Assembly: GCA_032173965.1 (NCBI GenBank)
Contig: JAVUNC010000005.1
Coordinates: forward strand, 496,001-560,000
Source of the DNA: Sitta carolinensis
Taxonomy: Eukaryota; Chordata; Aves; Passeriformes; Sittidae
Reading direction: 5' to 3'
DNA: 64,000 nt
This document shows positions 28,301 through 31,131 of this stretch, in pieces. How positions within the stretch are numbered: position 1 is the first letter of the stretch; the number at the start of each line of letters is the position of its first letter. The notes beneath the pieces are model-generated. The model ran no database searches. It was not told the origin of the DNA and worked only from the letters and a program-made list of their open reading frames with translations. The translations under genes and the position numbers were made by a program.

Positions 28301-31131
28301 GAGCCGGGGGTGGGGTGAGATGGGATCCATGGGATGGGGTGGGATCCAGGGGATGGGATCCATGGGATGGGGTGGGATCCAAGGGATGGGATCCAGGGGA
28401 TGGGATCCATGGGATGGGGTGGGGTGGGGATGGGGTGGGATGGGATAGGGTGGGGTGGGATGAGGATGGGATGGGCTGGGGATGGGCTGGGCTTAGCGCC
28501 GAGCCTGCCCGGGTCGCCGGGTTTAAAATCGGTTTAGAGCCTGTTTATAGCCTGCAGAGAGCGCTCGGGCCCGGGTTTAAAACCCCTTTAGAGCCCGGTT
28601 TTACTCTGCAGAGCATCCTCTGAGCCCGGGTTTAAACCCGGCTTAGAGCCCATTTACAGCCTGCAGAGAGCGCTCGGAGCCCGGGTTTAAACCCTGGACC
28701 AATGCCCTTTTTTTTTCCCTGGATAAATCTCCTTGTGCCGTGCCCAGGCGCCAACGTGAACGCGGCCAAGCTGCACGAGACGGCGCTGCACCACGCGGCG
28801 CGGGCGCGCAGCCCGGACCTGGTGCGGCTGCTGGTGGAGTTCGGCGCCAACGTGTACGCGCGGGACAACCGCGGCCGCAAACCCTCGGAGACGGCGCGGG
28901 GCGGCGGCGCGGCGGCGCGCTGCTGCCAGTACTACGAGCGTGAGTGCGGCGCGCGCGGCCCGGGGACGGGACCCCCGATCCCACCGCTGAACCCCCGATC
29001 CCACCGCTGAACCCCCGATCCCACCGCTGAACCCCCGATCCCACCGGTGAACCCCTCTGTCCCGGGGATGAGACCCCCAATCCCACCGCTGAACCCCCAA
29101 TCCCACCGGTGAACCCCTGATCCCACCGGTGAACCCCCGATCCCACCGGTGAACCCCCGATCCCACCGCTGAACCCCCGATTCCACCGGTGAACCCCTCT
29201 GTCCCGGGGATGAGACCCCCAATCCCACCGCTGAACCCCCGATCCCACCGGTGAACCCCCGATCCCACCGGTGAACCCCTGAGCCCACCAGTGAACCCCC
29301 GATCCCACCGGTGAACCCCCGATCCCACCGGTGAACCCCTGAGCCCACCAGTGAACCCCTGATCCCACCGGTGAACCCCCGATCCCACCGGTGAACCCCC
29401 GATCCCACCGCTGAACCCCCGATTCCACCGGTGAACCCCTCTGTCCCGGGGATGAGACCCCCAATCCCACCGCTGAACCCCCGATCCCACCGGTGAACCC
29501 CCGATCCCACCGGTGAACCCCTGAGCCCACCAGTGAACCCCCGATCCCACCGGTGAACCCCCGATCCCACCGGTGAACCCCTGAGCCCACCAGTGAACCC
29601 CTGATCCCACCGGTGAACCCCCGATCCCACCGGTGAACCCCCGATCCCACCGCTGAACCCCCGATCCCACCGCTGAACCCCTCTGTCCCATGGATGAGAC
29701 CCCCGATCCCACCAGTGAACCCCTGATCCCACCGCTGAACCCCCGATCCCACCGCTGAACCCCTCTGTCCCAGGGATGAGCCCCCTTTATCCCATGGCTG
29801 AGCCCCCTTATCCCACTGATGAACCCCTCTGTCCCATGGATGAACCCCTTTATCCCGTGGATGGGACCCTTTATCCCATGGCTGAGCCTGCTTTTATCCC
29901 ATTTTTATCCCATTGCTGAGCCCCTTTATCCCATTGCTGAGCCCATCTTTCCCATTTCTGATCCCATTTTCCCTGTTCCAAATCCCATTTTTTATCCCGT
30001 TTTTCCCTGTCCTCAATTCTGTTTTTATCCCGTTTCTCCCATTTCTATCCCGTTTTTATCCCATTTTCCCCACTCCCAATCCCGTTTCTCCCATTTCTAT
30101 CCCGTTTTTATCCCATTTTCCCCATTCTCAGTCCTGTTTCTCCCATTTTCACTCCGTTTTTATCCCGTTTCTCCCATTTCTATCCCGTTTTTTACCCCAT
30201 TTTCCCCACTCCCAGTCCCGTTTCTCCCATTTTCCCCTGTCCCGTTTCCCCATTTTCCCAGTCCCGTTTCTCCCATTTTCCCAGTCCTGTTTTTCCCATT
30301 TCCCCATTTTTCTCCCATTTTCCCAGTCCCGTTTCTCCCATTTTCCCCTTTTTACCCCATTTTCCCAGTCCCGTTTCTCCCATTTCCCCAGTCCCGTTTC
30401 TCCCATTTTCACCCCGTTTTTATCCCGTTTCTCCCATTTCATCCCGTTTTTACCCCATTTTCCCCACTCCCAGTCCCGTTTCTCCCATTTTCCCAGTCCC
30501 GTTTCTCCCATTTTCACCCCGTTTTTATCCCGTTTCTCCCATTTCTATCCCGTTTTTACCCCATTTTCCCCCTCCAGTCCCGTTTCTCCCATTTCCCCAG
30601 TCCCGTTTCTCCCATTTCCCAGTCCCAGTTTCTCCCATTCCCAGTCCCGTTTCTCCCATTTCCCCAGTCCCGTTTCTCCCATTTCCCCATCCCGTTTCTC
30701 CCATTTCCCCAGTCCCGTTTCTCCCATTTCCCCAGTCCCGTTTCTCCCATTTCCCCAGTCCCGTTTCTCCCATTTCCCCAGTCCCGTTTTCTCCCATTTC
30801 CCCCAGTCCCGTTTCTCCCATTTTCCCCCCATTTTTCTCCCATTTCCCCAGTCCCGTTTCTCCCATTTCCCCAGTCCCGTTTCTCCCATTTCCCCAGTCC
30901 CGTTTTCTCCCATTTCCCCAGTCCCGTTTCTCCCATTTTCCCAGTCCCGTTTTTCTCCCATTTTCCCAGTCCCATTTTCCCCCCGTTTCTCCCCTTTTCC
31001 CAGGGACGCCGCTGAGCCTGGCCCAGCTGTGCCGGGTGTCGGTGCGCCGCGCCGCCGGCCGCCGCCGCCTCCCGCACATTTCCCGCCTGGAGCTGCCTGC
31101 CCGCCTCATCCGCTACCTCTGCTACGACTGA
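22257..31131 (+). CDS. ASB13: ASB13, ankyrin repeat and SOCS box protein 13 (six exons)
   Basis: Substrate receptor of an Elongin B/C-Cullin 5 ubiquitin ligase: ankyrin repeats bind the target and the SOCS box binds Elongin C and Cul5. Exons: 22257-22293, 24532-24719, 25847-25997, 27480-27614, 28748-28939, 31004-31131. All have GT-AG junctions and the phases match, giving 831 bp or 276 aa, against 278 recalled for human ASB13. Markers: FWADRTPVHEAA at residues 14-25, six ankyrin repeats at about 16-225 (TPLHEASLRG, STPLCDACASG, SPLHEACMNG, TPLHVACAREH, TALHHAARAR), and a C-terminal SOCS box at about 236-276 with BC-box core LAQLCRV and LPARLIRYLCYD at the end. The start ATG lies in a CpG island; exon 1 adds only 12 codons and the first base of codon 13. 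Codons are GC3-biased. Exon 5 has an Ala/Gly-rich stretch replacing the human WSSSAPAK segment. No frame defect is seen. Confidence 0.97.
22294..22930. repeat. about 35-bp G-rich minisatellite, ASB13 intron 1
   Basis: Around eighteen units of GGGGACAGCGGGGAGAGGGG plus ACTGAGGGGACAG begin at the exon 1 donor. Units near 22587, 22853 and 22916 carry GGGGACATCGGTG, a copy of the exon 1/intron 1 junction. Confidence 0.95.
22931..23200. repeat. GGGGACTGGGAGA repeats
   Basis: Short units GACTGGGAGAGGG continue the G-rich tract, then TACTGGGGATACTGG variants up to about 23200. Confidence 0.85.
23310..23745. repeat. 59-bp minisatellite, ASB13 intron 1
   Basis: Six copies of GGGTTTTGGGGCTGCAGGAT, GGTTTTGGGGTTGCAGTGTG, GGTTTGGGGTTTTAAGGCT in that order. 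The last copies are almost identical. Confidence 0.95.
23885..24290. repeat. about 78-bp minisatellite, ASB13 intron 1
   Basis: Five units with AATGCAGAGTTTGGGAAGGG, GGGCTGAGTTTTTCCTTGAT and CCCAGCTCTTTTTCCATGCC. Confidence 0.9.
24850..24960 (+). mobile_element. CR1-like LINE fragment
   Basis: Segments such as AAGGCTCAGCCTGGAACACA and GGCTCAGGGGGGATCTTGTG resemble the 3' part of avian CR1 elements (the CAGCCTGGAGAAGAGGAGGCT region). It lies in intron 2. Identified from recall only. Confidence 0.5.
25110..25520 (+). mobile_element. CR1-like LINE fragment
   Basis: It carries GGGGCTCAGCCTGGAGCACA, then TTGGAATGGGCTGCCCTGGG and GTGCCCATCCCTGGGGG, in the same order as the CR1 3' region. A shorter related piece lies just upstream, so this intron carries a duplicated or two independent insertions. 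Confidence 0.6.
25521..25846 (+). other. end of ASB13 intron 2
   Basis: A short A/C-rich repeat (AACCCCAAAACC words, 25610-25700) is followed by ordinary sequence up to the exon 3 acceptor CTGCAG. Confidence 0.5.
26160..26690. repeat. minisatellite of CCCATTTCTGAT units, ASB13 intron 3
   Basis: Runs of CCCATTTCTGAT are interrupted by GTTCCCTGCACAGACCCCTC every 60-120 bp. The latter motif is itself a good acceptor sequence (CCCTGCACAG). Confidence 0.9.
26691..27425. repeat. about 150-bp repeats copying the exon 4 acceptor region
   Basis: Four to five copies with GGAATTCAAGGCTTGGCTTG, CAATTCCCAGCTCAGAGCTG, and CAGTTTTCATGGAATTTTCC followed by CTTTTCAGAGCCTGAAATCC. The last, diverged copy runs into the true exon 4 acceptor at 27478-27479. 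Confidence 0.85.
27620..28315. repeat. 14-bp minisatellite, ASB13 intron 4
   Basis: About 48 units of GGGATGGGAGCCGG with GGGCATGGGAGCC and GGGCGGGGAGCC variants begin about ten bases after the exon 4 donor. The coding strand is G-rich. Confidence 0.95.
28316..28500. repeat. GGGATCCATGGGATGGGGTG repeats
   Basis: Eight or so units of about 20 bp that continue the previous array with a different motif. Confidence 0.85.
28500..28690. repeat. about 62-bp repeat, three copies
   Basis: Each copy has GAGCCCGGGTTTAAA, TTTAGAGCC and GCCTGCAGAG in the same order. It lies just before the ASB13 exon 5 acceptor. Confidence 0.85.
28975..29790. repeat. 20-bp minisatellite with higher-order structure, ASB13 intron 5
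   Basis: About 40 units of GATCCCACCGGTGAACCCCC. A marker unit CCTCTGTCCCGGGGATGAGA appears near 29055, 29205 and 29445, and the block of units between markers is repeated with a 240-bp period. Confidence 0.95.
29791..31003. repeat. pyrimidine minisatellite ending in the exon 6 acceptor
   Basis: Units of about 23 bp, CCCCAGTCCCGTTTCTCCCA plus TTT, with TATCCCGTTTTTATCCC variants on the left. Nearly every unit is a polypyrimidine tract followed by CCCAG, so the array is a ladder of acceptor-like sites. The real acceptor of exon 6 is at its end. Confidence 0.95.
31004..31131 (+). CDS. ASB13: ASB13 exon 6, SOCS box
   Basis: The terminal coding exon reads TPLSLAQLCRVSVRRAAG through to YLCYD and a TGA stop at 31129-31131. 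It holds the whole SOCS box. Its acceptor, CCCCTTTTCCCAG, is effectively the last unit of the intron 5 pyrimidine array. Confidence 0.95.

Follow-up and report, generated by a model that had tools for sequence, protein, structure and literature searches.

A minisatellite running into the predicted exon 6 acceptor of ASB13 in Sitta carolinensis

The ASB13 gene and its repeat-filled intron 5

The 64,000-nt stretch of Sitta carolinensis DNA analysed here (the window, whose positions provide all coordinates below) carries the gene ASB13 on its + strand, and our subject is intron 5 of this gene, in which a pyrimidine-rich tandem array extends right to the acceptor of exon 6. Exons 2 to 6 were recovered by tblastn with a human ASB13 query, exon 1 was not located, and exon numbers are taken by analogy from the human gene. 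Bordered by GT and AG, these exons splice into a single open frame with the SOCS box at its end, and Pfam recognises both ankyrin repeats and SOCS_box in the product. The nearest relatives among the proteins listed are bird ASB13 (85% identity in Catharus ustulatus, 84% in Corvus kubaryi). Misidentification of the gene is ruled out by this open spliced frame, these relatives and these domains, and the gene and exon number proposed by the first-pass annotation, which was made from the letters alone, both hold. Exon 5 (28748..28939, + strand) encodes the last ankyrin part and ends in YYE followed by the C of an Arg codon, the GT-AG intron 5 covers 2064 bp (28940..31003, + strand), and the coding part of exon 6 (31004..31131, + strand) comprises the SOCS box and the stop codon. 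Read-through from exon 5 into the intron would meet a stop 23 codons past YYE.

Tandem repeats with a period of 7 or more make up 98% of intron 5, as against 91% of intron 4, 31% of intron 3, 7% of intron 2, none of the ASB13 coding exons and 47% of the whole window. From 5' to 3', the units of intron 5 measure 20, 21, 12, 31/52 and finally, at the 3' end, 23 bp. The 20-bp array (ACCCCCGATCCCACCGGTGA, 39 copies, 28971..29763, + strand) is followed by 21-bp and 12-bp arrays with consensus units CCCCTTTATCCCATGGATGAG and ATCCCATTTCTG (29760..29973, + strand), then by a mixed 52/31-bp array (30027..30595, + strand) that holds the last motifs resembling a yUnAy branch point (TTTAT, TTCAC and TTTAC, the final one at A30558), while Tandem Repeats Finder describes 30210-30981 as a 23-bp array of 32.8 copies with 79% matches and 14% indels. 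Neighbouring unit types align above the maximum of shuffled controls, clearly between the two 21-bp units (66 against 20), the second of these and the 12-bp unit (55 against 25), the 12- and 31-bp units (44 against 21) and the 31- and 23-bp units (49 against 37), and only barely between the first 20-bp unit and its neighbour (21 against 18). On these scores, a single repeat lineage downstream of the 20-bp array is plausible, whereas membership of the 20-bp array itself is not shown. The intron also contains 18 copies of the donor-like CCG|GTGAAC, which score 5.12 bits against 5.64 for the real donor AGC|GTGAGT (here and below, with approximate human splice-site and branch-point matrices), so that sites resembling a donor lie towards its 5' end and sites resembling an acceptor towards its 3' end. 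On its - strand (28940-31003), seven stretches of G-quadruplex type cover 757 nt, and the sense strand has none.

The acceptor ladder and its terminal unit

Ahead of exon 6, the first-pass annotation had described a ladder of some 30 acceptor-like sites, one in nearly every 23-bp unit from 29990 onwards, ending in the real acceptor as simply the last and near-identical unit. The array, the acceptor-like sites and the real acceptor at their end are all present, although in smaller number and with less regularity. The interval 29990-31010 contains 27 AGs, namely 26 decoys and the real AG at 31002-31003, with none between 29990 and 30129. All 26 decoys (30130..30969, + strand; G at 30131 to 30969) read YAG|T and score 6.4-9.9 bits, and 9 of them are in frame with exon 6. 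Exactly 23 nt separates consecutive AGs in 11 of 26 spacers, the rest spanning 6 to 84 nt, with most spacing inside the array at 22-46 nt. Even in the most regular part (unit TCCCGTTTCTCCCATTTCCCCAG, 30578..30969, + strand), the step is exactly 23 nt in 8 of 16 spacers, and the exact 23-mer itself occupies 8 of the 26 spacers in the ladder, 7 of them in this part.

The motif YYYCAG occurs 27 times in 29990-31010, against a mean of 1.75 (maximum 8) in 2000 mononucleotide shuffles and 15.6 (maximum 24) in 1000 dinucleotide shuffles. A stricter pattern of 8 pyrimidines, an optional base and YAG is not enriched in the same interval (4 seen, shuffle means 2.8 and 10.8, respectively), because most decoy tracts are cut short by an A, which in the typical unit, CCCATTTCCCCAG, leaves a run of just 7 pyrimidines ahead of the AG. 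Run length is 7 nt in 18 decoys, 4-6 nt in another six, 8 nt in one and 12 nt in the decoy at 30577. The base at +1 is T in all 26, which rules out an array of dual-specific or recursive sites; no decoy reads AG|GT, and there is no AGGT anywhere in 30110-31003.

The real acceptor (31002..31003, + strand) is of a different quality. Reading TTTCTCCCCTTTTCCCAG|G, with 16 unbroken pyrimidines and G at +1, its CAG|G scores 13.04 bits, the highest of the 46 AGs scored in intron 5, none of the 45 others reaching this value. It has the pyrimidine tract and YAG|G of an ordinary U2-type acceptor. This site is nonetheless part of the repeat, as is evident in the sequence itself: the last 34 nt of the intron (30970..31003, + strand), which would constitute its functional 3' end, align to the array with a score of 49, the differences being a missing AGT and two mismatches, with CCCATTTT changed to CCCCTTTT, whereas 500 shuffles of the 34-mer give a mean of 17 and a maximum of 33, and the acceptors of the four other ASB13 introns score 27, 17, 18 and 12. 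The missing AGT would have provided a further AG 23 nt upstream, and its absence leaves 34 AG-free bases. One mismatch, an A-to-C change that turns CTCCCATTTT into CTCCCCTTTT, is unique to the terminal unit (1 of 30 CTCCCNT sites). The acceptor is thus the last unit in the sense of a diverged copy, while the claim that its AG is near-identical to the others does not survive the G at +1, the unbroken tract, the missing AGT and a score of 13.04 bits against at most 9.9 for any decoy. In other words, the earlier interpretation was right about gene, exon and ladder and wrong in treating the terminal AG as a copy of the rest.

All three reading frames are free of stops across 29962-31012, which is unsurprising in a sequence that is 83% C+T. 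Beyond this, the two other frames of exon 6 end at 31015 or continue to 31493, and the SOCS box is lost in both. Concealment of the decoys by RNA structure is ruled out by folding of 30578-31060, which leaves the array nearly unpaired; the folding energy is lower than in shuffled sequence (z -2.31, equalled by 1 of 100 shuffles), the stems being formed by exon 6 and some distant pairs.

Candidate branch points for the terminal AG

That choosing among these AGs is a real problem, as first proposed, is apparent from the position of the last yUnAy motif, A30558, which lies 445 nt upstream of the real AG with 17 AGs between, and these 17 AGs rule out a distant consensus branch point followed by scanning to the first AG. 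The branch zone as defined by Gooding et al. (PMC1431707) comprises the AG-free end of the intron plus 15 nt. In intron 5, this zone holds only A30974, A30960 and the adenosine of the AG at 30969, and no yUnAy motif, since both free adenosines sit in CCCAT. The predicted branch point is A30974 (30974, + strand; TCCCATT), 29 nt before the AG and the only adenosine downstream of the last decoy in the intron that does not belong to an AG; A30960 (30960, + strand), a second candidate, lies 43 nt upstream of the real AG and 9 nt from its own AG at 30969. One or more yUnAy motifs occur in the same zone of introns 1, 2 and 3 (28-58 nt), but none in intron 4, so the motif is usual rather than required. 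The AG-free zones of introns 1 to 5 measure 54, 47, 73, 68 and 34 nt, that of intron 5 being the shortest of the five ASB13 acceptors, and the exon 6 acceptor lacks the long AG-exclusion zone of exons with distant branch points.

According to the same source, the spliceosome can skip AGs that follow a branch point by less than 12-15 nt (PMC1431707). Of the 19 adenines outside AGs in 30578-30969, 15 sit 7-10 nt before the next AG, within this distance, and the other four fall in the two spacers that have lost an AG (see below); most units would thus pass a branch on to the AG of the next unit, usually 30-34 nt further on. Given the bypass rule, no adenosines other than A30974 and A30960 lead to 31003 with no usable AG in between, and with a branch at either of them the published rules select 31003. 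Conversely, if scanning from an adenosine to the first AG holds, the branch point should be one of these two non-consensus adenosines.

Probably, then, a minisatellite has overgrown intron 5 of ASB13 at its 3' end, with a clean terminal unit that is used via A30974 or A30960 while the decoys are rarely used. A repeat of the type seen across the window would have grown to the very end of the intron, so that the array now supplies both the polypyrimidine tract and the AG of exon 6, and the terminal unit, whether through drift or through retention, would be a clean acceptor with G at +1, 16 pyrimidines and no AG of the neighbouring type. U2AF could bind all along the pyrimidine strip and yet be best placed at the CAG|G beside exon 6; after a branch at A30974 (or A30960), the first usable AG would be 31003. 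We infer this mechanism. The terminal acceptor differs enough from the decoys that ordinary splicing rules could select it, and no unusual splicing has come to light so far. Upstream decoys would be seldom used, with low-level 5' extension of exon 6 likelier than none at all. With 47% of the window in tandem repeats, the array resembles the ordinary product of repeat growth that happened to reach a splice site.

Several observations weigh against this interpretation. The AG was also lost at 30668-30712 and 30807-30851, in the regular part of the array, so its loss from the terminal unit need not reflect selection, and since edge units of arrays often diverge, selection on the terminal unit is not proven. 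The scores depend on the approximate matrices mentioned above. A30974 and A30960 are without the T at -2 of yUnAy, and 28 adenosines in 29852-30558 exceed their score of 1.55. In addition, the last 14-48 nt before the real AG contain yUnCy motifs, and since branch cytidines and guanosines are known in mammals (PMC10638238), cytidines could serve here, which loosens the adenosine-based argument. Where one RNA carries two strong 3' splice sites, U2AF and U2 have been reported to occupy both, with poor splicing as the result (PMC5389562), and the presence of 26 decoys might accordingly hamper splicing. Of the non-canonical NF1 acceptor mutations studied, 63% act by interrupting the AG-free zone, which is their most frequent mode of action (PMC7317903). 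In view of such competition between sites and of the NF1 data, normal use of 31003 would be noteworthy, if cDNA confirms it.

Protein evidence and alternative readings

Use of the junction can be approached through related proteins, 120 of which were listed, 15 of them recognised as bird or bird-like (14 by source name, P0010 by sequence). The plain junction of exons 5 and 6, in which YYE or FYE and one residue lead into the SOCS exon with no insert, is seen in 13 of these 15. The exceptions are Strix aluco X1, which has a different C-terminus after YYE, and a partial protein from Balearica that ends there; one of the 13, P0008 (Zonotrichia isoform X2), diverges later in exon 6. The source sequence of P0010, at 1040 bases, would suit a spliced mRNA, to judge by its length. 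Among the bird proteins, several are incomplete or were predicted by homology and are thus biased towards the plain junction, which also tempers the interpretation favoured above. A SOCS_box match is absent from 13 of the 120 proteins, and nothing resembling the array was found in P0008, P0040, P0041 and P0056 (full sequences) or in the inspected parts of others among the SOCS-less proteins; the inspected parts after exon 5 of P0040, P0041, P0086, P0097 and P0098 are likewise not array-like. A search with the array-encoded peptide, in which the 7995 candidates with the most shared words were scored, gave a single match among them, to an ASB13 (P0010, 21% of the region), which speaks against the array as coding sequence, and among the same candidates no protein with a 5'-extended exon 6 was found. 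These proteins, mostly predictions from other species, support the junction rather than measure decoy use in Sitta. In a mammal, P0048 (ASB13 of Camelus bactrianus) reads YESACPETPLTL at the same junction, four residues longer than usual, which suggests a nearby alternative acceptor there.

These data bear most directly on the idea that the ladder leaks, several array AGs being used to give exon 6 varied 5' extensions and a mix of proteins with and without the SOCS box, the usual 23-bp step not being a multiple of three so that neighbouring choices shift the frame. With 6.4-9.9 bits, the decoys equal or exceed the acceptors that end introns 2, 3 and 4 (5.6-6.4 bits), nine of them are in frame with exon 6, and no frame has a stop from 29962 to 31012. 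There is a precedent of sorts in the human ABCA7 variable number tandem repeat (VNTR), one extra 25-bp unit of which, ending at a repeat-borne donor, is kept in ~2% of transcripts (PMC5954066), although this form is reported to be independent of VNTR length (PMC5954066). Open frames are however expected in such C+T-rich sequence, no array-encoded peptide was found beside a SOCS box among the candidates scored, and 13 of the 15 bird or bird-like proteins have the plain junction, and we consider substantial leakage unlikely. Were mRNAs made in which a decoy shifts exon 6 into another frame, they might escape decay, exon 6 being the last coding exon. Less likely still is a ladder that cancels itself, in which array length could tune the share of ASB13 protein with the SOCS box. 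Most regular units have a single adenosine besides that of their AG, which it precedes by about 9 nt, in the zone that can be skipped, so a branch in one unit would lead to the AG of the next, usually 30-34 nt on, and splicing would move by whole units, each 23-nt step changing the frame; the terminal unit would escape through the absence of its middle AG.

The remaining alternatives concern the origin of the array. It could have been seeded by duplication of an ancestral acceptor instead of growing into one, and the homology of the terminal unit to the array would fit this. The core CCCAGTCCC also occurs, however, in the 13-bp units that precede exon 2 (alignment score 27 against a control maximum of 19), and the direction of growth is not readable from one genome; on balance, such an origin seems doubtful. 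It is highly improbable that selection shaped the whole array, for instance as a long landing strip for U2AF or PTB that aids a weak branch point. Its almost unpaired folding would suit this role, as would the 15 of 19 adenines at 7-10 nt from an AG, which leave few units as complete acceptors, but intron 4, the flanks and the region preceding exon 2 are likewise filled with minisatellites, in either strand sense, and the array upstream of exon 2, with its 104 AG sites of at least 5 bits, leaves nothing special about the one in intron 5.

Overgrowth of the acceptor by a minisatellite, the reading we prefer, has its closest counterpart in the VNTR in intron 18 of human ABCA7 (PMC5954066), in which a minisatellite of similar unit length (25 bp, like 23 bp not a multiple of three) also covers a real splice site and its units copy that site; in ASB13, too, a tandem array runs into what would be a functional splice site. 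The ABCA7 array differs in lying over a donor, at the 5' end of its intron, where longer alleles are associated with more skipping of the next exon (PMC5954066), whereas the ASB13 array lies over an acceptor, at the 3' end, and is known from one assembly, which would make it the natural acceptor-side counterpart. Introns with distant branch points and long AG-exclusion zones (PMC1431707; OGDH, PMC7969005) share the very long pyrimidine tract and the consensus branch points far upstream, but are AG-free down to the acceptor, unlike ASB13 with its 17 AGs after the last yUnAy. Dual-specific splice sites in the tandem repeats of UBC and other genes (PMC10809524) resemble the ladder in that each repeat carries a splice-like signal, which is AG|GT there and in none of the 26 decoys. 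In NAGNAG and other tandem acceptors, AGs likewise compete at one acceptor, although NAGNAG sites lie three bases apart and the AG nearest to the real one in ASB13 is 34 nt away. Most work on how the spliceosome selects between competing AGs involves few sites, and 26 similar AGs ahead of a real one that differs from them in a few definable bases represent a natural test case. Among the open-licence papers listed in literature searches, none was seen to describe an acceptor-bearing minisatellite ladder or an ASB13 with such an array. This case points to a way in which bird genes rich in repeats may still be spliced although minisatellites invade their introns.

Repeats and genes elsewhere in the window

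Similar AG sites abound in other arrays of the window, which makes decoy ladders here a by-product of minisatellite growth; intron 5 is set apart by its array touching an exon. Upstream of exon 2, the 13-bp array (CCCAGTCCCCCAT, about 116 copies) occupies 20542-22035, and 101 of the 104 AG sites in 20487-22100 that score at least 5 bits read AG|T. Intron 3 contains 19 AGs that equal or outscore the acceptor of exon 4 (6.39 bits), the best of which (13.41 bits, at 26831) lies outside the array of this intron. That array (26170-26690) has units composed of a CTGAT branch motif, a pyrimidine tract and TGCACAG|A or TGCACAG|G, and nine AGs in it outscore the exon 4 acceptor (8.6-10.95 against 6.39 bits).

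Tail to tail with ASB13 lies NET1, on the - strand, of which 46802-47350 matches a solved NET1 protein (4xh9, E 6.7e-30); further exons at 48.0, 51.0 and 55.8 kb were recognised by eye only, Pfam remaining blank for the two tried. Tandem repeats account for 1-17% per 4 kb in the NET1 stretch (36001-56000) and reach 30-86% in 1-36 kb and 56-64 kb. Antisense to NET1, a 21-bp array with consensus TAAATTGATTTTCAGGTGTTA spans 63679-63993 in 15 copies, 7 of which read TTGATT..CAGGT, combining a branch-like motif, a short pyrimidine tract and AG|GT in the manner of recursive or dual-specific sites.

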